Made by a program: the position numbers and the translations under genes. Positions 1 through 10,357 of a DNA stretch of 36,471 nt are shown piece by piece (position 1 is the first letter of the stretch; each line of letters starts with the position of its first letter). The notes under the pieces are model-generated. The model made no database searches, was not told where the DNA came from, and saw nothing but the letters and a program-made list of their open reading frames with translations. Source of the DNA: Oscillospiraceae bacterium. Lineage in GTDB: Bacteria; Bacillota; Clostridia; Oscillospirales; Oscillospiraceae. Where the stretch lies: contig JAFXUU010000066.1 of assembly GCA_017524845.1 (NCBI GenBank), positions 1 through 36,471 of the forward strand, written 5' to 3'.

Positions 1-938
1 GTCACCACTGCGGAGATGACCTGGGTGATGCAGGCGTTGAGGGAGTGGGACACGGTGTCCACGTCGTTGGTGATGCGGCTCATCACTTCGCCGTTGGAAT
101 ACTTGTGGAAGAAATTGATGGGCAGCTTGTTGATCTTGGCGATGATGGCGTTGCGCAGGTTATAGGAGACCTTGTTGGAGACGTATGCCAGGGTGAAGCC
201 CTGGGCGTAGGAGAAGAGCATGCTCAGTACGTACAGCCCCAGCAGGATCAGGATGACCTGGCCGACGTAGTGGAAATCCACACCGTTGGTGCCGCCGGCG
301 GTGACCGCGGCCACGCCGCGCACGATCTCGTTGGTGATACGCGCCAGGATCTTGGGGTTGATGGTGCTCAGCAGGGTGGAGCAGACGGAGCAGACGGCCA
401 CCAGCAGGATCAGCCACTTATAGACCATCATGTACTTTATGAGCTGCTTCATGCTGGTCTTGAAGTCCTTGGCCTTCTCGCCGCCGCCCCGCATGCCCGG
501 AGGACCTCCGCCGCCGGGACGGCCGCCCCGCCGCTGGTTCTTCATTTTGCTGGTGTCAGGGCGCACCAGGGGCCGGTAGCCGGGGGGATAGGCGTTGAGG
601 TCAGCTTTGTCGATCTCGTTGGGGTCGGGGAATTTGGGCATCAGGAGCTTCATGAGCCCTTTGGGCTTGGGCATGCCTTCGGGGAATTCGCCCTTTTCGA
701 TCATTTCCTTCATCTTTTCGGGGTCGAAATCCTCCGGCGGCGTGAACCCGCCGGGGCCCTTCTTCCCGCCGGGCTTGCCCGGCATCTTGGAGGGATCGAA
801 ATCCTTGGGCATTTTGCTCGGATCGAAGTCTTTGGGCATTTTGGAGGGGTCAAACCCCTTGGGCATTTTGGAGGGGTCAAAGCCCTTCGGCGGCTGCTGG
901 GAATCGGCCGGGAAGGCGTTTTTCTTTTCTTCGCTCAT
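1..938 (-). CDS. ABC exporter half-transporter, N-terminal part (runs off window)
   Basis: Only the first 312 or so residues are in the window; the C-terminal ATPase lies beyond base 1. Residues 1-140 are a Pro/Met/Gly/Lys-rich soluble extension carrying four tandem nine-residue repeats. After that come the hydrophobic helices of a type IV (B-family) ABC exporter (YKWLILLVAVC, then VGQVILILLGLYVLSMLFSY). The family-typical stretch LPINFFHKYSNGEVMSRITND marks the first coupling region. Its ATG overlaps the TGA of the upstream exporter gene by four bases (ATGA), so the two are translationally coupled and probably form a heterodimer. The upstream partner has a degenerate ATP site, which predicts that this subunit carries the intact Walker B glutamate and switch histidine. 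That cannot be seen here. The substrate is unknown. Confidence 0.9.
   Translation of the reverse strand, partial: MSEEKKNAFPADSQQPPKGFDPSKMPKGFDPSKMPKDFDPSKMPKDFDPSKMPGKPGGKKGPGGFTPPEDFDPEKMKEMIEKGEFPEGMPKPKGLMKLLMPKFPDPNEIDKADLNAYPPGYRPLVRPDTSKMKNQRRGGRPGGGGPPGMRGGGEKAKDFKTSMKQLIKYMMVYKWLILLVAVCSVCSTLLSTINPKILARITNEIVRGVAAVTAGGTNGVDFHYVGQVILILLGLYVLSMLFSYAQGFTLAYVSNKVSYNLRNAIIAKINKLPINFFHKYSNGEVMSRITNDVDTVSHSLNACITQVISAVV
780..887 (-). repeat. Four tandem 27-bp repeats encoding KGFDPSKMP / KDFDPSKMP
   Basis: Residues 18-53 of the truncated ABC subunit are four back-to-back nine-residue units, KGFDPSKMP twice then KDFDPSKMP twice. A degenerate fifth copy (DFDPEKM) follows about 20 residues later. 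The units differ at synonymous positions, so they are not a very recent duplication. They lie in the cytosolic N-terminal extension before the first membrane helix. Confidence 0.9.
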
Positions 939-3115
939 GCCAATTCCTCCTTTGAAAGCTGGCTTTCGGCGATCTCGCGGTAGGCCTCGCAGCTCTCCAG
1001 GAGCTCGCGGTGGGTGCCGTGGCCCACGATCTTGCCTTCCTCCAGCACGAAGATCTGGTCTGCGTTCATGATGGTGCTGACCCGCTGGGCCACCACCAGC
1101 ACCGTGGCATTCTCCGTAGTGGCGTAGAGGGCCTTGCGGAGGGCCGCGTCGGTGCGGAAGTCCAGGGCGGAGAAGCTGTCGTCAAAGATGAAGATGGGCG
1201 GGTTCTTGATGAGGGCCCGGGCGATGCTGAGACGCTGCTTCTGACCGCCGGAGACGTTCTCGCCGCCCTGAGCGATTGCGATGCTGAGGCCGTTGTTCTC
1301 CTCGTTGATGAAGTCGCCCGCCTGGGCGGTCCGGATGGCCCGGTACATCTCCTCGTCCGTGCCGTCCTCCTTGCCCAGGGACATGTTGGTGGCCACGTCG
1401 CCGGAGAAGAGCACGCCCTTCTGGGGCACATAGCCGATGTTGTTGCGCAGCTCATGGAAATCCAGATCCCGGACGTCCACGCCGTCCAGCCGGATGCTGC
1501 CGGCGGTCACGTCGTAGAAGCGGGGCACCAGATTGATGAGCGTGCTCTTGCCGGAGCCGGTGGAGCCGATGAAGGCCACCGTCTGGCCCGGCAGGATATC
1601 CAGGTTGATATCCTCCAGAACATTGGATTCCGCGTCGCCGTATTTGAAGGAGACGTGGTCGAACTCGATGTGGCCCTTGGCCCGTCCGCCCAGGGTCTTG
1701 AGGTTCTCCCGGTTGCGGATGGTGGGCTCACGCTGCAGGACCTCCTCCACACGGCTGGCCGCCACCAGGGCGCGGGGCAGCATGATGAACATCTGGGCAA
1801 TCATCAGGAAGGCCATGATGATCTGCATGACGTACTGCATGTAGGCCATCATATCGCCCACGGGCATGTAGAACCTCGCCACCAGGTGGCCGCCCACCCA
1901 GATGATGAGCAGGGTCACGGCGGAGAGCATGAAGTTTTCGATGGGGTTCAGGGTCGCCATGGTGCGCTGCACGAAGAGGCCGGTTTCCGTGATGTCCTTG
2001 TTGGCCACGTCGAAGCGCTCCTCCTCCAGCCTTTCGTTGCCGAAGGCGCGGATGACCAGCATGCCGGTGAGGCTCTCCCGGGCCACCAGGTTCAGGCGAT
2101 CGGTGAGCTTCTGCATGATCTTGAACTTGGGGACCACCAGCTTGAAGGTGATCACCTGCAGCGCCAGGAGCAGCACCACGGCGATGGCCACGATCCAGCT
2201 CATGTTGGCGCATTTCCGCAGGGCCATGATGATGCCGCCCACGGCGTACAGCGGCGCCATAAAGACCATGCGGATGCCCATCATGGCCACCTGCTGCACC
2301 TGCTGCACGTCGTTGGTGCTGCGGGTGATGAGGGTGGCGGTGCTGAAGGCGTCCACGTCCTCGCTGGAGAAGCTGGTGACCTTCGTGTAGATGTCGTGCC
2401 GCAGCTTCTTGCCGATGCCGGCGGAGACCCTTGCCCCGCAGAAGCCGTTGCCCACGGTGCAGAGGCCGCTCATCAGGCTGAACAGCAGCATGATGCCGCC
2501 GATTTTCAGGATGTAGCCCTGCTGCACCTTCGGCACGTCTCCGCCCAGAGAGGCATGGATGCCCTTGGTGAGGGTGACTGCCACGCTGCTCATCATGAGG
2601 CTGGCGTTGTCCTCTCCCGCCATGGACTTTCCGGCGGCGACGGCGCTGTCGCTGAGGGTCGCGGCCTGGGCCAGCACTCCCTCGGGCCCCAGCACGCTGA
2701 AGTCCGCGCCGCCCATGCTCATGTTCAGCGCGTAGTACGCCTTGCTGACGGCTGCGTTCACCGCCGCCAGCGCCGCCTTATCCGGCGTCTTTCTGACGTA
2801 TGCCCCCTTCCCGGCAAGGGCGGGATAGGCCTTCAGCGTTTTGCCGTCCGCCTTGCCCGCTTCCACCCAGGTGTACGCATTCTTCACCGTTGCCTCGTCC
2901 GCTCCGTCGGTAAAGCGGAGGGTGAGGTCCATCATGTCCGCGTCCATGACGTCGGGGGCGGCGTTGGAAATGCCGCTCTGGACGATGCCCACGTTCACGA
3001 TGCTGCTCATGTAGTTCGGCAGATAGAGCTCCAGGATCGTCTGCGCGAACAGCAGAAGCAGGGCGATGACCACCAGGGGGATGAAGGGCTTTAGGTATCT
3101 CAGGATCAGTTTCAA
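935..3115 (-). CDS. ABC exporter half-transporter with degenerate ATP site
   Basis: A 726-residue membrane/ATPase fusion of the type IV ABC exporter family, longer than the usual 580-600. The extra length is a polar insertion of about 150 residues (roughly 48-195) between the first and second membrane helices, predicted to face outside. The nucleotide-binding domain has Walker A GSTGSGKST (517-525), signature VSGGQ (621-625) and Walker B ending D645. The catalytic glutamate position is Asp646 and the switch histidine is Gln677 (AQRVSTI). This pair of changes is the known signature of the non-hydrolysing site in heterodimeric exporters such as TM287/288. Translation starts at TTG 3115, with GGGAG nine bases upstream; no in-frame ATG fits before the first helix. 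It follows iorB after 45 bases and couples by ATGA to the next subunit. The substrate is unknown. Confidence 0.93.
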   Translation of the reverse strand: MKLILRYLKPFIPLVVIALLLLFAQTILELYLPNYMSSIVNVGIVQSGISNAAPDVMDADMMDLTLRFTDGADEATVKNAYTWVEAGKADGKTLKAYPALAGKGAYVRKTPDKAALAAVNAAVSKAYYALNMSMGGADFSVLGPEGVLAQAATLSDSAVAAGKSMAGEDNASLMMSSVAVTLTKGIHASLGGDVPKVQQGYILKIGGIMLLFSLMSGLCTVGNGFCGARVSAGIGKKLRHDIYTKVTSFSSEDVDAFSTATLITRSTNDVQQVQQVAMMGIRMVFMAPLYAVGGIIMALRKCANMSWIVAIAVVLLLALQVITFKLVVPKFKIMQKLTDRLNLVARESLTGMLVIRAFGNERLEEERFDVANKDITETGLFVQRTMATLNPIENFMLSAVTLLIIWVGGHLVARFYMPVGDMMAYMQYVMQIIMAFLMIAQMFIMLPRALVAASRVEEVLQREPTIRNRENLKTLGGRAKGHIEFDHVSFKYGDAESNVLEDINLDILPGQTVAFIGSTGSGKSTLINLVPRFYDVTAGSIRLDGVDVRDLDFHELRNNIGYVPQKGVLFSGDVATNMSLGKEDGTDEEMYRAIRTAQAGDFINEENNGLSIAIAQGGENVSGGQKQRLSIARALIKNPPIFIFDDSFSALDFRTDAALRKALYATTENATVLVVAQRVSTIMNADQIFVLEEGKIVGHGTHRELLESCEAYREIAESQLSKEELA

Positions 3116-3160
3116 GCCTCGATTCTCCCTTTCTTCTTTTTATTTTTTTTATTTACTCTT
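3116..3160 (-). other. AT-rich spacer between iorB and the exporter genes
   Basis: On the minus strand this 45-base gap is almost pure purine plus A/T (runs of A separated by T or G), unlike the GC-rich surroundings. It ends in GGGAG, the ribosome binding site for the TTG-started exporter gene. I see no hairpin. It may be an unstructured leader favouring ribosome loading, or an RNase target between operon segments. Confidence 0.5.
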
Positions 3161-3727
3161 TCAGGCCTCCCGGCCCCTGCGGAAGGCGGCGAGGTTCATC
3201 TCCACCGTCTTCGGCGGCACCATGGCGGCGATGAGACCCTCCCAGTCGAAGGACGGCAGGGGAAGCGCCTTCACCAGGGCTCCCAGCAGACAGATGTTCT
3301 GGCTCTTGGGACTGCCCAGGCTCTCAGCGATCTCCCCGGCGGCCACCACCTTGGCGCCCGCCAGCTTTTCCAGCTCTTTGTCGGCCCCGTGGGGGTATTC
3401 CGCCGCGCCGGTGAGGACGCTCATGGGCATGATCTCCTTCCGGTCCATGAGGATGGAGCCGCCCTTTTTCAGATAGGGCAGGGCCCGGAGGGCTTCCGTC
3501 TTTTCAAAGGCGACGATCAGGTCCGCTTCGCCCTCCCCGATGTTGGGAGCGTAGACCCTGTCGCCGTAGCGGAGCTGGGTGTTCACCGTGCCGCCCCGCT
3601 GGCTCATGCCGTGGATCTCGCTCATTTTCACGTCGTAGCCCATTTGGGCCAGGCCGGCGGAAAGAATCTTCGTGGTCAGGATCGTGCCCTGGCCGCCCAC
3701 GCCGGTGAGAAGAATGCTGGTGATCAT
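3161..3727 (-). CDS. iorB: Indolepyruvate:ferredoxin oxidoreductase beta subunit
   Basis: A 188-residue protein of the pyruvate ferredoxin/flavodoxin oxidoreductase gamma-type family. With IorA it converts aryl pyruvates (indolepyruvate, phenylpyruvate, hydroxyphenylpyruvate) to aryl-acetyl-CoA plus CO2, reducing ferredoxin in the cytoplasm. The family's opening glycine-rich loop GVGGQG is at residues 9-14. Next comes the conserved segment MSEIHGMSQRGGTVNTQLRY. The start is ATG 3727, inside the ATGA overlap with the iorA stop. A longer frame back to 3778 would run deep into iorA and add residues unlike the family. The strict overlap and adjacent alpha subunit make the call firm. Confidence 0.95.
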   Translation of the reverse strand: MITSILLTGVGGQGTILTTKILSAGLAQMGYDVKMSEIHGMSQRGGTVNTQLRYGDRVYAPNIGEGEADLIVAFEKTEALRALPYLKKGGSILMDRKEIMPMSVLTGAAEYPHGADKELEKLAGAKVVAAGEIAESLGSPKSQNICLLGALVKALPLPSFDWEGLIAAMVPPKTVEMNLAAFRRGREA

Positions 3728-5505
3728 GCCTTTCCACCTGCCTTTCGGATGGCGCCGAAGCGGCATTGCTGCATGCACAGGCCGCAGCCGGTGCAGCTGG
3801 CCGGATCGGAAATGAGGGCCTTTTTCGTCTTCGCGTCGAAGGTGAGGGCGGGGCAGACCACCTTCGTACAGGCCCGGCAGCCCCTGCAGGCCTCCGCGTC
3901 GATCTCGCAGCGAAGATCGCCCCGGGCCTTGATGACCTCCTTGAGCAGGGCGCAGGGCCTCCGGCTGAGGATCACCCAGGTCTCCTTCGTGGAAAGAGCC
4001 TTTTCGATGGCGGCGTTCATGGCCGCCTGGTCGATGGGATCGACCTCCAGCACCCGCTCCTCCGGCAGGCCGGTGGCCAGCACCATGCGCCGGATGTTGA
4101 TGGCGGGGACCTCGTAGCCCATCAGGCTGATCTCGGTACCGGCGTTCTGCTGGTGCCCGGTCATGGCGGTGATGGAATTGTCCAGCACCACGAGGCAGAC
4201 GTTTGCCTTCGCGTGCACCGCGTCCACCAGGCTGTTGAAGCCGGAGTGGAAGAAGGTGCTGTCTCCCAGAATGCCGAAGACCTTGCGCCCGTCGCCCTGC
4301 TTCTCCAGGGCCTTGGCAAGGCCGATGGGGATGGAGAAGCCGGAGCCCATGCAGATGCAGGTGTCGAAGCCGCGGAAGGGCTCGCCCACGCCCAAGGAGT
4401 AGCAGCCGATGTCGCCCACGGCCACCAGGCGCTTATGGTAGTTCTGCATGGCGAAGTAGAAGCCCCGGTGGGGGCAGCCCGCGCAGAGGGCGGGCGGACG
4501 GGCGGGGGCCGTGAGGCTGCTCTGCACCGTTTCCGGCGCGCCGCCCAGGCCGAAAGCGGCCCGGATGCGCTGGGCGCTCAGCTCGCCCTGCCGGGTGGTG
4601 TACGCCTTGCCCTCGCAGGGGATGCCCAGGGCCTTCACGGCCTCCTCCAGATAGGGCTCCCCCTCCTCGATGACGATGATCCGCTCCATCCCGGCGCAGA
4701 AATCCCGGATGAGCCGGTCCGGCAGGGGATGGGTGATGCCCAGCTTCAGATAGCTGGCGTCCTCCCCGAAGGCTTCCCGGGCGTGGAGCCAGCACACGCC
4801 GGAGGCGATGACGCCCAGCTTCGTGCCGTGCATCTCCGTCCGGTTCAGGGGGCTCGTTTCCGCATATTCCTTCAGGGCCGCCAGATTGGCCTCCACGGCC
4901 ACGTGGCGCTTCCGGGCGTTGGCCGGGAGCATGGCGTACTTCGCGGGATCGGGCTTATACACGCCCGGATGCTCCGCGCGCTCCCCCTGCTCCACCAGGC
5001 TCTTGGAATGACAGACCCGGGTGGTCATGCGAAGGAGCATCAGAAGGTCGAATTTCTCGCTCAGCTCAAAGGCCGCCTTCACGTAGTCCAGACATTCCTG
5101 GCTGTCGGCGGGCTCCAGCATGCCCAGCCGGGCATGGGGAGCGTACAGCCGGTTGTCCTGCTCGTTCTGGCTGCTCCAGCAGCCGGGATCGTCCGCCGAA
5201 ACCAGGACCATGCCGCCGTTCACGCCGGTGTAAGCAGCGGAAAAAATGGGATCCGCCGCCGCGTTCATGCCCACGTGCTTGAAGGCGGCCAGGCTGCGAA
5301 GGCCCCCGAAGGAGGCCCCCAGGGCGATCTCCACCGCGATCTTCTCGTTGTTGGCCCACTGGCAGTACACGTCGTCCTTATACAGGGACATGTTCTCCAG
5401 AATCTCCGTGCTGGGCGTGCCGGGATAGGCGGCGGCAACGCCGACGCCGGCCTCCCATGCGCCCCGGGCGACGGCCTCGTCGCCGCTCATGATGACCTTG
5501 CTCAA
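3724..5505 (-). CDS. iorA: Indolepyruvate:ferredoxin oxidoreductase alpha subunit
   Basis: A 593-residue thiamine-diphosphate enzyme subunit, the normal size for IorA. The N-terminal pyrimidine-binding domain opens with SGDEAVARGAWEAGV and the YPGTPSTEI segment. The TPP/Mg motif begins GDSTFFHSG and ends at the conserved DNS about 30 residues later. The C-terminus carries two 4Fe-4S sites: Cys540, 543, 546, 551 and Cys571, 574, 577, 581. The best start is TTG 5505, which aligns with the usual IorA N-terminus; the internal ATG at 5490 would trim it. It lies 54 bases after marR and overlaps iorB by ATGA. The enzyme should act in anaerobic aromatic amino-acid catabolism and is expected to be oxygen sensitive. 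Confidence 0.96.
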   Translation of the reverse strand: MSKVIMSGDEAVARGAWEAGVGVAAAYPGTPSTEILENMSLYKDDVYCQWANNEKIAVEIALGASFGGLRSLAAFKHVGMNAAADPIFSAAYTGVNGGMVLVSADDPGCWSSQNEQDNRLYAPHARLGMLEPADSQECLDYVKAAFELSEKFDLLMLLRMTTRVCHSKSLVEQGERAEHPGVYKPDPAKYAMLPANARKRHVAVEANLAALKEYAETSPLNRTEMHGTKLGVIASGVCWLHAREAFGEDASYLKLGITHPLPDRLIRDFCAGMERIIVIEEGEPYLEEAVKALGIPCEGKAYTTRQGELSAQRIRAAFGLGGAPETVQSSLTAPARPPALCAGCPHRGFYFAMQNYHKRLVAVGDIGCYSLGVGEPFRGFDTCICMGSGFSIPIGLAKALEKQGDGRKVFGILGDSTFFHSGFNSLVDAVHAKANVCLVVLDNSITAMTGHQQNAGTEISLMGYEVPAINIRRMVLATGLPEERVLEVDPIDQAAMNAAIEKALSTKETWVILSRRPCALLKEVIKARGDLRCEIDAEACRGCRACTKVVCPALTFDAKTKKALISDPASCTGCGLCMQQCRFGAIRKAGGKA

Positions 5506-5559
5506 TTTTCTGTTCGCTCCTTGAATATTGGGATCCGGCCGCCCCGGGGGCGGCTTCGC

Positions 5560-6021
5560 TTATTCCTCGAAATCCTCGGGCTCCGGCCCGCCGGGACCTA
5601 CCAGCTTCCGCAGCAGCTCCGTGAGCTGTGCCTTCTCCCCGTCGGAGAGGGGGGATAGGAACAGCGCCGCGAAATCCGGCCGATTCTCGATGAGCTCCGA
5701 GACCCGGTCCCGCCCCTCGTCCGTGAGGAAAATGTTGAAGATGCGCTTGTCTCTGGCGGACTGCCGCCGTTCCACCAGCCCGGCGGACACCAGCTTCCCC
5801 AGAGTCTCGCTGACGGATTGGGGCCGCAGCTGCAGCAGCGTGGTCATGTCCCGCTGGCTGATGCCGTCGGATTCGCTGAGCATGATGAGGATGCGGTTCT
5901 GAGCGCTGGGGCGGCCGCCCTTTTCCCACTCGCCGCCCAGACCGGGGCCGCGGCGGAGGACGGCGTAGAGCCGGAAGATCTGCTCCATAAGCTGCTCGTT
6001 GGGGCTCAGCTGATAATCCAT
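5560..6021 (-). CDS. MarR-family transcriptional regulator
   Basis: A 153-residue winged-helix repressor. The core reads GISQRDMTTLLQLRPQSVSE (helix-turn-helix), then LVSAGLVERRQSARDKR and the wing IFNIFLTDEGRD, the standard MarR layout. The C-terminal helix forms the dimer interface. The start is ATG 6021, with AAAGGAG seven to eight bases upstream; the frame extends further but reads through promoter and operator sequence. It is the first gene of the minus-strand operon with iorAB and the exporter pair. The operator-like repeats at its own promoter suggest autorepression relieved by a small, probably aromatic, ligand. The ligand is inference. Confidence 0.94.
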   Translation of the reverse strand: MDYQLSPNEQLMEQIFRLYAVLRRGPGLGGEWEKGGRPSAQNRILIMLSESDGISQRDMTTLLQLRPQSVSETLGKLVSAGLVERRQSARDKRIFNIFLTDEGRDRVSELIENRPDFAALFLSPLSDGEKAQLTELLRKLVGPGGPEPEDFEE

Positions 6022-6043
6022 CGCGCATCTCCTTTCCCAAGAA

Positions 6044-6061
6044 TTGTAAGGTACTTGACAA
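6044..6061 (-). promoter_or_regulatory. Imperfect 18-bp palindrome, candidate MarR operator
   Basis: TTGTAAGGTACTTGACAA matches its own reverse complement at 14 of 18 positions. It lies between the predicted transcription start and the marR start codon. It contains the 11-base word AAGGTACTTGA (6048-6058), which recurs at 6063-6073 and, inverted, at 6117-6127. MarR proteins typically bind such 16-20 bp dyads, so repression of the operon is a reasonable inference. Confidence 0.65.
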
Positions 6062-6129
6062 TAAGGTACTTGAACAAACTTCATTATACGCCGCCCCTCC
6101 CCGAATGTCAAGATATTCAAGTACCTTAT
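6061..6129 (-). promoter_or_regulatory. Promoter TTGACA-N17-TATAAT inside a 14-bp inverted repeat
   Basis: On the minus strand the -35 TTGACA is at 6111-6106 and the -10 TATAAT at 6088-6083, both perfect consensus with a 17-base spacer. The 14-base word ATAAGGTACTTGAA at 6061-6074 is repeated exactly, inverted, at 6116-6129. It therefore brackets the core promoter. One site overlaps the expected start of transcription and the other sits just above the -35. This is the expected geometry for repression by the MarR protein encoded directly downstream. Confidence 0.85.
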
Positions 6130-6487
6130 TTTATAAAAATTCTACATTTCTGTCCGGACGTTTCGGCCGCCGGTGACGGGAAGACGACAGAGGACGAAGA
6201 AACAGCGGACCCGGCGGGACCGCCGCCGAACCGGGCCGAAGCCCGCCGGATCAGCGAACATGATCCTGAAATCTGTTCCGAAAGGCAGGAAAAGTGCCGA
6301 AAAGAAGCCGCGCATATCCCCATGGGGGGCTTGACGGCCGGGGATCGGCAATATATGTTCTTCAATAGATAATTATAAGCAGCGCATCCCCGCAGGATCG
6401 AAGGGAAAAACCGGCCCGAGGGCCGCTCCTGTCCCGCCGGGGGCAAATCCGCACGTAATCGGGCTTGAAAGAAAGGAAACGGATGCC
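6130..6487. other. Intergenic region between two divergent operons
   Basis: About 360 bases with no convincing gene on either strand. The open frames here lack ribosome binding sites and have no family-like protein character. The region holds upstream sequence of the marR operon, a candidate plus-strand promoter at 6331-6359, an AT-rich patch (6351-6379) and a GC-rich leader with short dyads (for example GGCCC GA GGGCC near 6412-6423). The leader ends at AAAGGA before the ATG at 6488. I find no confident riboswitch. Confidence 0.5.
6331..6359 (+). promoter_or_regulatory. Candidate promoter TTGACG-N17-TATGTT
   Basis: TTGACG (5 of 6 to consensus) at 6331-6336 and TATGTT (4 of 6) at 6354-6359 are separated by 17 bases. 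This predicts transcription from about 6366 and a leader of about 120 bases before the transporter operon. It is the best match in the region. Confidence 0.55.
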
Positions 6488-7690
6488 ATGAAGAGAACAT
6501 ATGCGATCTTCCTGCTGGCCGCGCTTCTGCTGGCCCTGGCGGCCGGCTGCGGCGGCAATACCTCCGCGCCCACAGCCGCGCCTACCGAGGCGCCTGCCGC
6601 CGCTCCCGCGCCGGCGACGGAAGCCCCGGCCCCGGCGACGGAAGCCCCGGCGACGACGGAGGAACCCGCACCTGAGACGCCGGCGCCCTCCGGTACCCGC
6701 ACCGTTACGGACGTGCTGGGCCGGGAGGTGGAGATCCCCGCAGAGGTGACCTCCGTCGGCGCTCTGGGCAGCGCCACCCGCACCATCGCCTATGCCGGCG
6801 GCATCGATAAGGTTACGGGCACCACGGAGATGGAGATCCGGGGCGACGCGGGCATGCCCTTTGCTTACGCCTGCCACGAGCACCTGAAGGACTGCACCGC
6901 CATCGCCTCCGGCGGCAGCGGCAATACGTATTACGACGAGGCCATCGCCGAGCTCAGCCCGGACGTGATCATCATCAACACCAACAACGCGGACACCTGC
7001 AACGACTTCCAGGCGAAGTTCAACATCCCCGTCGTCGCGATCTACGCGGACAAGTTCACCTCCCCCAATCTGACGGATTCCATCCGCCTCTGCGGCGAGG
7101 TGCTGGGCACCGAAGCCCACGCCGAGGCGGTGATCGCCGCCATCCAGGGCTGGCTGGCAGAGCTGGACGGCCTGACGAAGGACATCCCCGATGCCGGGAA
7201 GCCCGGCGTCTACCTGGGCGCGGTCAGCTTCTCCGGCGGCCACGGCTTCTGCGGCACCTACTGCAACTATGCGCCCCTGATCGCCATCCACGCCAATAAC
7301 CTGGCCGACAGCCTGGGGGAGAAGGGCGGCGTGGAGATCGCCATGGAGCAGGTCATCGAGTGGGATCCGGACATCATCTTCCTGAATCCCGGCAACATGA
7401 ACCTGGTGATGGACGACTATGCGGTTAACCCCGACGCCATCGACAGCCTGCGGGCCGTGCAGAACGGCAGTGTCTACTCCCAGGTGAACTTCAATTACTA
7501 CAGCACCAACATGGAGCTGGCCATCGTGGATGCCTATTACGCCGGGTCCGTCATCTATCCCGAAGCCTTCAGGGACGTCGACTTCCGGGCCAAGGCGGAG
7601 GAGATCTTCAACGTGATGATCGGCAGGGATTACCTGGGCGTCCTGGAAGAAAACGGCCTCACCTTCGGCCCCATCACCATCGGGGAATAA
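6488..7690 (+). CDS. Lipoprotein substrate-binding protein of a metal-chelate/corrinoid ABC importer
   Basis: 400 residues. A short signal ends in lipobox LAAGC with Cys21, so the protein is lipid-anchored outside the membrane. A Pro/Ala/Thr/Glu tether with repeated APATEAPAP units runs to about residue 70. The class III binding-protein fold follows (TVTDVLGREVEIP; LSPDVIIINTNN; WDPDIIFLNPG), as in the FepB/BtuF group that binds iron-siderophores, heme or cobalamin. The segment SFSGGHGFCGTYCNY carries two cysteines near the presumed ligand site and is not typical of simple siderophore binders. The start is ATG 6488 after AAAGGA. It begins an operon with permease, ATPase, methyltransferase and FmdE. 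The ligand cannot be read from sequence. Confidence 0.9.
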   Translation: MKRTYAIFLLAALLLALAAGCGGNTSAPTAAPTEAPAAAPAPATEAPAPATEAPATTEEPAPETPAPSGTRTVTDVLGREVEIPAEVTSVGALGSATRTIAYAGGIDKVTGTTEMEIRGDAGMPFAYACHEHLKDCTAIASGGSGNTYYDEAIAELSPDVIIINTNNADTCNDFQAKFNIPVVAIYADKFTSPNLTDSIRLCGEVLGTEAHAEAVIAAIQGWLAELDGLTKDIPDAGKPGVYLGAVSFSGGHGFCGTYCNYAPLIAIHANNLADSLGEKGGVEIAMEQVIEWDPDIIFLNPGNMNLVMDDYAVNPDAIDSLRAVQNGSVYSQVNFNYYSTNMELAIVDAYYAGSVIYPEAFRDVDFRAKAEEIFNVMIGRDYLGVLEENGLTFGPITIGE

Positions 7691-7693
7691 GGA

Positions 7694-8770
7694 ATGGACA
7701 GGGAACCGGTCCTGAGCGGGAAGGAATACCGTTCCTTTATCCGGGAGAAGAAGCTCTTTCTTCTGGGCCTGGCCCTGGCCACCGTCGCCGTTTTCATCCT
7801 CTCCATCGCCCTGGGCTCCTCCAATCTGCCTCTGGGCAAGGTGCTGGCCGCCCTGGCCGGCAGGGCGGAGGGGAAGGAGAAGATCATCGTCTCCAACCTG
7901 CGCCTGCCCCGCTCGGCCACGGCCGTGGTGGTCGGCGTGGGCCTGGGGATCGTCGGCTGCGTGATGCAGGGGGTCCTTCGGAACCCCCTGGCCTCCTCCG
8001 GCACGGTGGGCGTCTCCCAGGGCGCGTCCTTCGGCGCGGCCTTCGCCATCATCGTCCTGGGGGGAGGCGCCATGTCCTCCAACACGGCGGGGGCCACCCT
8101 TTCGGTCATCAATCCCGCCCTGGTGAGCACCTGCGCCTTCCTGGGGGCCATCTCCTGCACGGTGGTGGTGGTGATCCTGGCCCAGCTCAGCAGATCCAAT
8201 CCCGGCACCCTCATCCTGGCGGGCGTGGCCCTGTCCAACCTCTTCGGGGCGGCCACGACCCTCATGCAGTATTTCGCCGACGACGTGAAGGTTGCCGCCG
8301 TGGTCTACTGGACCTTCGGCAACCTGGGCAGCACCTTCTGGAAGGACATCGCCATCATGGCCGCCGCCGTGGTAATCGCCCTCGTTTTCTTCTGGCTCAA
8401 CAGCTGGAACTACAACGCCATGCAGAGCGGGGAGGATACGGCCAAGGGACTGGGGGTCAACACCCGGCAGATCACCATCTGGAGCATGGCCGTGGGCGCC
8501 CTGACGGCGGCGGTCATCGTCTCCTTCATCGGCATCATCAATTTCGTGGGCCTCATCGCCCCGCACCTGGTCCGCCGCTTCGTGGGCACGGACTACCGCT
8601 ATCTGATCCCGGCCTCCGGGCTGGCGGGGGCCTGCCTCCTCCTGCTGAGCGACACCTTCGCCCGCATCGTGGTGGCCCCCATCGTGCTGCCCGTGGGCGC
8701 CATCACCTCCGCCCTGGGCGCGCCTCTTTTCCTGTGGATCGTCTTCAAAGGGGGGATCCGGCGCAAATGA
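7694..8770 (+). CDS. FecCD-type ABC importer permease
   Basis: A 358-residue polytopic protein of the BtuC/FecCD family, expected to have about ten membrane helices and to work as a homodimer. Family landmarks are LRLPRSATAVVVGVGLGIVG, MQGVLRNPLASSGTVGVSQG and, near the end, the ATPase-contacting stretch IIGIINFVGLIAPHLVRRFVG. It starts three bases after the binding-protein stop and its TGA overlaps the ATPase ATG (ATGA), so stoichiometric production is expected. Substrates of this family are ferric siderophores, heme or corrinoids. Confidence 0.95.
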   Translation: MDREPVLSGKEYRSFIREKKLFLLGLALATVAVFILSIALGSSNLPLGKVLAALAGRAEGKEKIIVSNLRLPRSATAVVVGVGLGIVGCVMQGVLRNPLASSGTVGVSQGASFGAAFAIIVLGGGAMSSNTAGATLSVINPALVSTCAFLGAISCTVVVVILAQLSRSNPGTLILAGVALSNLFGAATTLMQYFADDVKVAAVVYWTFGNLGSTFWKDIAIMAAAVVIALVFFWLNSWNYNAMQSGEDTAKGLGVNTRQITIWSMAVGALTAAVIVSFIGIINFVGLIAPHLVRRFVGTDYRYLIPASGLAGACLLLLSDTFARIVVAPIVLPVGAITSALGAPLFLWIVFKGGIRRK

Positions 8771-9555
8771 TCAAAGCAGAGCATGTGCGCTACGCCTACC
8801 GCGGCGCGAAAGAGGTGCTGAAGGATCTGAACATGTCCGAGTCCGCCGGGCATTGCCTGGCCCTGCTGGGCAACAACGGGGCGGGAAAGAGCACCTTCCT
8901 CAAATGCATCAACCGCATCCTCTCCCGGCAGGGGGGCGTCATCAGCGTGAGCGAGCAGGACGTGAAGGCCCTCAGCCGGGGGGAGATCGCCCGCACCATG
9001 GCCTACGTGGAGCAGCATACCGGCGTCAGCCGCCTCACCGTCTACGACACCGTGCTCCTGGGAAGGAAGCCGCACATGAGGTTCGGCCCCGGCCGGGAGG
9101 ATTACAGGATCGTGGACGAGGCCATCGCCAGGCTGAGCCTGCAGGAATTCCAGCTGCGTTACGTGGACGAGCTCTCCGGCGGCGAGCTGCAGAAGGTGGT
9201 GCTGGCCAGGGCGCTGGCCCAGCAGCCCAAAGTGCTCCTGCTGGACGAGCCCACCGCCAGCCTGGATCTGTATAACCAGCACGAGGTGATGCGCAACGTC
9301 TCTGAGATCGCAAAGGCGGACCGGCTGCTGGCCGTGGTGGTCATCCACGACCTGAACCTGGCCCTCCAGTACTGCGACCGCTTCATGCTGATCCACGACG
9401 GCTTTACCTATCGCTACGGGGACGCCTCGGTGATCACCGAGGAGAGCATCCGGGAGGTTTACCGGGTCCCGGCCTCGATTCTCACGGTGAAGGGCAGGCC
9501 CTTCGTGGTGGTGGACACGGGAATTGCGGAAGGAGAAGAGATCCATGGAGCTTAA
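8767..9555 (+). CDS. ABC importer ATPase (FecE/BtuD type)
   Basis: 262 residues with all ABC ATPase motifs: Walker A GNNGAGKST (35-43), signature LSGGE, Walker B VLLLDEPTASLD and the switch histidine in VVIHDLNLAL. These match the FecE/BtuD group that pairs with FecCD permeases. The start is ATG 8767 in the ATGA overlap with the permease; a longer frame from 8734 lies inside the permease. Its 3' end overlaps the methyltransferase start by 11 bases. Confidence 0.95.
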   Translation: MIKAEHVRYAYRGAKEVLKDLNMSESAGHCLALLGNNGAGKSTFLKCINRILSRQGGVISVSEQDVKALSRGEIARTMAYVEQHTGVSRLTVYDTVLLGRKPHMRFGPGREDYRIVDEAIARLSLQEFQLRYVDELSGGELQKVVLARALAQQPKVLLLDEPTASLDLYNQHEVMRNVSEIAKADRLLAVVVIHDLNLALQYCDRFMLIHDGFTYRYGDASVITEESIREVYRVPASILTVKGRPFVVVDTGIAEGEEIHGA

Positions 9556-10357
9556 AGAGCTGCGCGCCGCCTGGAGGGCGGACGCCGGAAGGGACAGGGA
9601 CGCTGTCGTCCGCCTCTGGGACGGGATGGCCTCCCGTTTTGTGAGGAGAGACGTGACCCTGGAGAACAACGTGTTCCTCCGGCTGATGGCCGAAAAATCG
9701 GAGCTTTCGGAAAAAACCGCCGTGCTGGACCTGGGCTGCGGCACGGGGAGTTATATCCTGGCCCTGGCGCCCCGGATCGGCCGGGGCGTGGGCTGCGACA
9801 TCTCTGCGGAAATGCTCTCCGCCGCCCGGGCCGGCGCCGGGGAAAAAAGGCTGGACAACGTGGAATTCCTTCGCCTGGACTGGCAGACGGCGGATATCGA
9901 CGAACTTGGCTGGCGGGAAAAGTTCGACGTGGTCTTCGCTCACATGACCCCCGCCGTGGCGGATTACGACACCCTGGATAAGATGGTGCTCTGCGCCCGG
10001 AAGCACTGCTATCTGACGAAGCCCTGCCGCAGGACGGACCTGTTGCTGGACGCGGGCATGGACGTTCTGGGACTCCGCCGCCGGGACGCGGGCGGGGATA
10101 CGATGATGGAAAACACCTTCGCCTACCTTTGGAGAAAGGGCTTTGAGCCCGCATTCACCTATGAGCATCGCGACAATGAAACGGAAACGGGCGTGGAGGA
10201 CGCCGTGAGCAGCGCCCTTCGCTGGGCCGCCCTGCAGCGGGAGACCGGCCCCGAGGACGAGGAGAAGCTGCGGGAATACTACGCCTCCGTCGCCGGGAAC
10301 GGGAAAGTGAAAGGAAGGACGGTATCCACCGTCGTCACCATCGACTGGGCGGTATGA
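9545..10357 (+). CDS. Class I SAM-dependent methyltransferase in the importer operon
   Basis: 270 residues of Rossmann methyltransferase. Motif I is LDLGCGTGSY, followed by GVGCDISAEML (acidic residue for SAM ribose) and VEFLRLDWQ. The motif IV position is FAHMTPAV. The substrate is unknown; the fold resembles general methyltransferase_11/25 types. The start is ATG 9545 with AAGGAG nine bases upstream; an upstream in-frame TTG at 9524 would place that ribosome site inside the gene. It overlaps the ATPase gene by 11 bases and precedes an FmdE-family gene, so it probably acts on the imported compound or a metal cofactor. Confidence 0.88.
   Translation: MELKELRAAWRADAGRDRDAVVRLWDGMASRFVRRDVTLENNVFLRLMAEKSELSEKTAVLDLGCGTGSYILALAPRIGRGVGCDISAEMLSAARAGAGEKRLDNVEFLRLDWQTADIDELGWREKFDVVFAHMTPAVADYDTLDKMVLCARKHCYLTKPCRRTDLLLDAGMDVLGLRRRDAGGDTMMENTFAYLWRKGFEPAFTYEHRDNETETGVEDAVSSALRWAALQRETGPEDEEKLREYYASVAGNGKVKGRTVSTVVTIDWAV

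Follow-up and report, generated by a model that had tools for sequence, protein, structure and literature searches.

Firmicutes harbour MarR-controlled exporters of the TM287/288 type, such as PatAB, BmrCD and EfrCD, and in heterodimers of this type the two ATP sites divide the labour, one being degenerate and the other canonical. For most MarR-controlled exporters the natural cargo is not known. A second group of systems, the two-gene 2-oxoacid:ferredoxin oxidoreductases (OFORs) of gut anaerobes, has been tested and prefers aromatic 2-oxoacids, according to the portion of PMC13290082 drawn on here, and the corresponding portion of PMC13285125 places indolepyruvate:ferredoxin oxidoreductase (IOR) genes often near genes for a phosphate acyltransferase and an acyl kinase, or near a ligase gene. 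The word 'transporter' has no occurrence in the main text of either paper on arylpyruvate oxidation in gut anaerobes, and the exit of aryl acetates from the cell therefore looks open there. The present study concerns an operon that joins both kinds of system: in the window, i.e. the whole stretch of DNA that was analysed (36,471 bases of an Oscillospiraceae bacterium; G000:C124, bases 1-36,471, one whole contig of its assembly), iorA and iorB lie between a marR gene and the two half-genes, ABC1 and ABC2, of a heterodimeric ATP-binding cassette (ABC) exporter.

The account that I favour is one of an autorepressed operon with MarR and the exporter as its core. MarR dimers would bind GGTACTTGA sites on either side of a consensus sigma-70 promoter, as suggested by the sites and their conservation, and bound MarR would block transcription of marR-iorA-iorB-ABC1-ABC2 until some inducer released it. 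The steadier unit would be MarR together with its TM287/288-type heterodimeric exporter, and iorAB would be a long-standing, dispensable passenger that has stood beside this exporter ever since the common ancestor of five genera but was lost in some species that kept regulator and exporter. Coexpression of iorAB and the exporter is probably useful, and the exporter would not be dedicated to the IorAB product. Taken as a whole, this account is held with moderate confidence.

The pairing of iorAB with the exporter was traced in a draw of 400 genomes of the family, of which 25 (G000 included) encode an IorA of the same group, set at an identity of at least 60% (next best matches 53%). Surroundings were inspected for all 25, for G000 from the window itself. 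ABC1 follows iorB in 13 of them, which belong to five genera (g1: G000, G001, G002; g8: G013; g3: G008, G136; g7: G012, G138, G202, G251, G290, G326; g80: G085), so the order is not confined to a single strain, the outcome that the first-pass annotation of this DNA had named as fatal to its proposal. ABC1 is not found after iorB in 11 (G015, G029, G089, G091, G093, G100, G147, G171, G175, G209, G258); G091 does have an ABC2-like gene 0.75 kb away, truncated at the end of the contig, which lies on the other strand and faces iorAB. The contig of the remaining genome, G066, ends after iorAB and its linkage is unreadable. Of 90 loci outside the IorA group, many of them cut short, a single one (L173) had two full-length ABC half-genes as a co-directional pair downstream, and an order-wide draw of 394 genomes gave three matches over 1e-200, one of them new (G526, 57%).

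Ten linked loci have 1.3 kb or more of upstream sequence, and MarR was found there in four (G000, G001, G002, G013), using tblastn, which a very divergent MarR could escape; G085, G138 and G251 have just 0, 194 and 580 upstream bases. The order of iorAB and the exporter is conserved across five genera; the full five-gene order with MarR occurs in just four genomes of two genera, that of the window included. In the linked loci lacking MarR, the nearest upstream open reading frame (ORF) encodes a decarboxylase beta subunit (G008, with the same cluster in G136), a ribulose-phosphate epimerase (G202), a radical SAM protein (G290), a PHP-domain protein (G326) or, divergently, a 143-aa product without a Pfam match (G012).

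Two genomes of the window's own genus, G003 and G004, show the reverse situation: marR is followed by ABC1 and ABC2 after 136-137 bases, without iorAB in between. Their exporter is 70% and their MarR 71-72% identical to those of the window, their operators are also kept, and no full-length IorA was found elsewhere in either genome. The locus of a third genome, G005, is broken by contig ends and its order is unreadable. Because G003 and G004 retain MarR, operators and exporter without iorAB, and 11 of the 25 genomes carry iorAB without an exporter after it, the exporter appears to be the steadier partner of MarR. More distant MarR matches in 40 genomes point the same way: an ABC half-gene lay directly downstream on the same strand in six of 21 loci (in one more, upstream only), and iorAB in none of the 21 within 1.5-kb flanks (one locus having only 23 bases downstream), so MarR proteins of this kind accompany exporters more often than iorAB. 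These arrangements indicate that the predicted regulator-operator-exporter module does not depend on iorAB and that iorAB needs neither MarR nor the exporter.

The promoter region is consistent with local autorepression. The core GGTACTTGA occurs three times in the window, each time in the marR control region, against 0.05 expected copies, and the predicted palindromic operators flank marR's own promoter, as would suit a MarR autorepressor (Table 1). The same plan of arm, TTGACA, TATAAT and arm lies upstream of marR in five relatives (G001, G002, G003, G004, G013), and the third operator copy is shared with G001 and G002 and is not present in G003, G004 and G013. The operator pair was found at exactly one place in seven of the eight genomes searched (G000-G005 and G013), with or without iorAB, and not in G006, in a search of incomplete genomes that would miss single or weaker sites; a reversed control pattern gave no match in any of the eight. 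In G005 the pair lies 63 bases from a contig end, and its gene is not seen. Since the pair occurs once per genome in these seven, MarR looks like a dedicated local autorepressor. The minus strand between 900 and 6600 holds no further promoter-like site downstream of the marR promoter, in line with the single MarR-type operon proposed earlier. iorAB would thus be under MarR control and therefore coexpressed with the pump; anything beyond that is inference.

Table 1. Positions in the window of the five genes and of the predicted promoter and operator sites.
Feature	Position	Strand	Description
marR	5560-6021	minus	ATG start; 153 aa winged-helix regulator; PF01047 46.0 bits, PF12802 44.0 bits
iorA	3724-5505	minus	TTG start; 593 aa; thiamine pyrophosphate (TPP) domains and C-terminal 4Fe-4S motifs; POR_N, TPP_enzyme_C, Fer4
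iorB	3161-3727	minus	ATG start; 188 aa; POR (PF01558); NF005325 235.1 bits
Exporter half 1 (ABC1)	935-3115	minus	TTG start; 726 aa; ABC_membrane and ABC_tran; degenerate nucleotide-binding domain (NBD)
Exporter half 2 (ABC2)	1-938	minus	N-terminal 312 codons; ABC_membrane; ends at contig edge
Upstream operator arm TTCAAGTACCTTATT	6116-6130		minus-strand reading AATAAGGTACTTGAA; 15-nt perfect inverted repeat with 6060-6074
Promoter TTGACA-17-TATAAT	6083-6111	minus	12/12 consensus matches; between operator arms
Downstream operator arm AATAAGGTACTTGAA	6060-6074		partner of the 6116-6130 repeat
Third operator copy TAAGGTACTTGA	6047-6058		15 nt from previous copy

The first-pass annotation had described five co-directional genes with gaps of 54 and 45 bases and two ATGA overlaps, and the coordinates agree: the gaps lie between marR and iorA (5506-5559) and between iorB and ABC1 (3116-3160), and the overlaps between iorA and iorB (3724-3727) and between ABC1 and ABC2 (935-938). 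The gene families it had named are borne out by the domains in Table 1, and its right-hand limit, 6129, lies far enough out to include the promoter/operator region. The order is not due to chance, since it recurs in other genera.

The history of the linkage was approached with trees of ABC1 (31 rows, some weaker ABC1 matches being left out) and of IorA (36 rows; L108, L109, L040-L051, L091-L093 and L111-L172 left out). A single ABC1 clade of 17 rows (100/99) unites all 13 linked genes with those of G003, G004, G005 and contig C104 of G000, and a single IorA clade of 18 rows (99/97) unites the 13 linked rows with five unlinked ones. A tree in which the 13 iorAB-linked ABC1 rows are held apart from 17 others, G003-G005 among them and C104 on neither side, was rejected by the approximately unbiased (AU) test (p-AU 3.8e-5). 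As G003-G005 are nested within the linked clade and the separating tree is rejected, loss of iorAB is the simplest reading. These sequences would be most simply explained by a linkage that arose once and was later undone, in the G003/G004 line by loss of iorAB and elsewhere by loss of the exporter link; being made on unrooted trees, the counts remain compatible with repeated gain. The iorAB-exporter pairing is genuine, and it is a variant of the widespread MarR-exporter operon that is restricted to certain lineages. As a possible scar of iorAB loss, G003 in its marR-ABC1 gap and G013 in its iorB-ABC1 gap share a 9-nt word, TTTTGTAGA; a score at least as high was reached by 12 of 1000 shuffles for the core and by 65 of 1000 for the entire gap, compared with 541 and 106 of 1000 for the window's iorB-ABC1 gap and 408 of 1000 or worse for both marR-iorA gaps, and the word counts as a hint and not as evidence.

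Several points weigh against the account of a MarR-exporter core with iorAB as its passenger. The linkage of iorAB with the exporter persists to ~53% ABC1 identity, which argues for a tie closer than that of a passenger. G003 and G004 are 71% and 76% complete, and iorAB could sit elsewhere in these genomes, though not in this operon. The group used in the AU test was chosen after the tree had been seen. The G000 assembly (153 contigs, 70.7% complete, 3.46% contamination) contains a second ABC1-ABC2 pair at the very start of contig C104 (L231:41-4455), with an ABC1 90% identical to that of the window, and two species may possibly be mixed in this bin. The C104 pair, which is followed by thioesterase-like and FAD genes as in G001, is either a paralogue or part of a sister-species contig; the closest named relative in the scan was Ruminococcaceae bacterium RUG14053, with an IorA 89% identical. 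Finally, IorA reaches 634.8 bits, 16 bits short of the TIGR03336 equivalog cut-off of 650.9, which is passed by seven of eight scored relatives, including the G013 and G008 orthologues, and missed by G012 (626.6). The window IorA is a near miss in a group that straddles the TIGR03336 line, and is named here as an IOR-like subunit and no certified equivalog.

IorA has the domain order of an IOR alpha subunit (POR_N, TPP_enzyme_C, 4Fe-4S), and IorB, with its POR domain, passes the NF005325 cut-off of 230 bits. Because tested relatives use aromatic 2-oxoacids, IorAB most likely, by analogy, oxidises arylpyruvates to arylacetyl-CoA and reduced ferredoxin. In relatives that share 55-57% identity, iorAB is accompanied by a kinase (L104, L105, L107, L108), a phosphotransacylase (L101, L107, L108) or a D-2-hydroxyacid dehydrogenase (L101, L104, L105), and in a relative at 58% (L102) by an AMP-binding ligase; none of these four was found beside iorAB in the window locus. 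An acyl kinase partner was considered and rejected: the TIGR02707 cut-off is passed in five of 14 genomes and not in G000, where the match to this family consists of two pieces on contig C74 and none on the window contig. A biosynthetic use of IorAB, in the reductive carboxylation of aryl acetates, was likewise considered and not adopted; prephenate dehydratase is encoded in all 14 genomes, and a PaaK-type ligase domain in nine of the 14 (not in G000, G001, G003, G004 and G005).

MarR passes the Pfam cut-offs of the winged-helix families MarR (PF01047) and MarR_2 (PF12802) and exceeds no cut-off among the 16 NCBIfam families listed. The best of these models, that of the bilirubin utilisation regulator BilQ (NF045593), gave 43.7 bits against a cut-off of 125, and identity with BilQ was rejected. 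In ABC1, Asp replaces the catalytic Glu (IFIFDDS) and Gln the switch His (VAQR) in the motifs IFIFDDSFSALD and VAQRVST, with an intact VSGGQ signature; the degenerate-site residues do not vary across an alignment of 12 ABC1 rows, from which they were taken, a strict Walker B pattern having matched under half of the ABC1 rows. ABC2 of the window is cut off at base 1 by the contig end and its NBD lies beyond. Complete copies (C104, G001, G002, G004, G013) show LDEATSSVD, IAHRLST and an ISAGQ signature, with catalytic Glu and switch His present; a strict signature pattern gave no match in some ABC2 rows. With two half-transporters side by side, each a transmembrane domain fused to an NBD (for ABC2 seen complete only in relatives and C104), and with a degenerate site in ABC1 and a canonical one in the relatives' ABC2, the exporter is heterodimeric, as had been claimed. 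Among structures in the PDB, ABC1 is best matched by 8wcw_A (4.6e-142), and TM287 (3qf4_A, 1.7e-120) is among the best; by analogy, the exporter is most likely a broad-specificity pump of TM287/288 type for amphiphilic or toxic compounds. The N-terminal tail of ABC2 is long and probably disordered, its length and repeat varying between genera; in the window a 27-base tandem repeat of 4.1 copies (781-891) encodes a KGFDPSKMP-like repeat in it. An anti-phage role was also considered and rejected, since the PADLOC matches (for the ABC protein mad3, mad8 and LeoBC, for MarR CARF and Csa3) seem to reflect generic domains.

The first-pass annotation had gone further and suggested an aromatic catabolite, such as indoleacetate or phenylacetate, as both the signal of MarR and the cargo of the exporter. 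In its strongest form, IorAB would make arylacetyl-CoA, aryl acetates would accumulate, MarR would sense these or the arylpyruvate, and the exporter would act as a dedicated overflow valve that expels them. The coding order and the single promoter would fit, as would the close or overlapping iorAB and exporter genes in g1, g3, g7, g8 and g80; a match to an ADP-forming acyl-CoA ligase is missing in 12 of 14 genomes searched, and a thioesterase-like gene past the exporter (in G001, G002 and C104) could free the acid from its CoA ester. Yet G003 and G004, with no iorAB at this locus, still have exporter, MarR and operators; 11 of 25 genomes have no exporter after iorB, and six of the 10 assessable linked loci have no MarR. 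Moreover, the substrates best known for TM287/288-type exporters are drugs and lipids of hydrophobic or amphiphilic character rather than small anions. The suggested sensing and removal are thus not supported by the loci compared, and such a valve is rather unlikely; a metabolite link between enzyme product, MarR ligand and exporter cargo is a hypothesis with evidence both ways, more of it against than for.

At the opposite extreme, iorAB and the exporter may be adjacent by descent alone, with no common physiology and with incidental control of iorAB by MarR. Losses are seen on either side, and the upstream neighbourhood is partly common across genera, including decarboxylase genes and three further gene clusters common to G001 (g1) and G013 (g8), so that part of the pattern stems from the shared ancestry of the entire region. 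However, iorA-iorB-ABC1-ABC2 stayed together while no gene cluster downstream of the exporter, in the stretches read, is common to different genera; the iorB-ABC1 spacing has its extremes in four g7 loci, where the genes overlap by 4 bases, and in G001, where it is 217 bases and includes an inserted repeat element; and passive linkage usually decays at such divergence. Adjacency by descent alone is therefore judged unlikely. Quite improbable is a self-contained unit for aromatic amino acid fermentation, in which an arylpyruvate or aryl acetate would release MarR, IorAB would reduce ferredoxin with arylpyruvates and the TM287/288-type exporter would expel the aryl product.

Around the operon, biotin-dependent, Na+-pumping decarboxylase genes (carboxyltransferase, biotin carrier, OAD gamma and beta; four representatives Pfam-checked) lie upstream of iorAB in six genera (g1, g3, g24, g86, g88, g95), with or without the exporter: upstream of iorA in L036, L037, L074-L079 and L081, and further upstream in L033 and L034. 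This neighbourhood may be the older setting of this iorAB. Beside marR, the window carries a divergent run (6488-10354) of a Peripla_BP_2 binding protein, a FecCD permease, an ABC ATPase and a methyltransferase, which was left outside the unit because G001 and G013 carry other genes there. An element of ~160 bases with inverted ends GCGGTGTTGCC, resembling a miniature inverted-repeat transposable element, lies at L034:7479-7639 and about L033:7350-7520, one copy upstream of marR in G002 and one between iorB and ABC1 in G001; matches to its ends number 30 in G002, three in G001 and none in seven other genomes searched. The marR-ABC1 gap of G003 and G004 (L232:8708-8853, L233:9255-9401) holds, by eye, a long imperfect inverted repeat, GAGCGC..GCGCTC, which could form a transcript hairpin.

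The operon offers a natural experiment, i.e. a genus with species that do and do not have iorAB in the same operon under the same kind of operators. If inducer and cargo differed with iorAB, the idea of an aromatic link would gain; if they were the same, a general exporter with iorAB as a co-induced passenger would be indicated. No TM287/288-type exporter is known to me whose natural cargo is the end product of a fermentation, although no search for others was made, and such a case would probably be new. A marR-iorAB-exporter operon was not named in titles and abstract openings of the literature searched, mostly outside subscription journals, which is not proof of novelty.

Compared with known systems, IorAB resembles the TIGR03336/NF005325 enzymes and, as far as the portion of PMC13290082 drawn on here extends, the PPFOR-like two-gene OFORs in its alpha subunit with fused TPP domains and a C-terminal 4Fe-4S region, its small beta subunit and its ATGA overlap; unlike several relatives at 55-57% identity, the window has no phosphotransacylase or acyl kinase adjoining. 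The chemistry proposed here, arylpyruvate to aryl-CoA and reduced ferredoxin, is also that of the Hpd/IOR clusters, which, in the portion of PMC13285125 used, recover ATP by HpdJ/HpdK-like enzymes, whereas the window has an exporter instead. From the MarR-controlled heterodimeric exporter operons of Firmicutes the locus takes its general plan, with MarR first, adjacent half-genes and a degenerate and a canonical ATP site, and it differs from them in having iorA and iorB between regulator and exporter.

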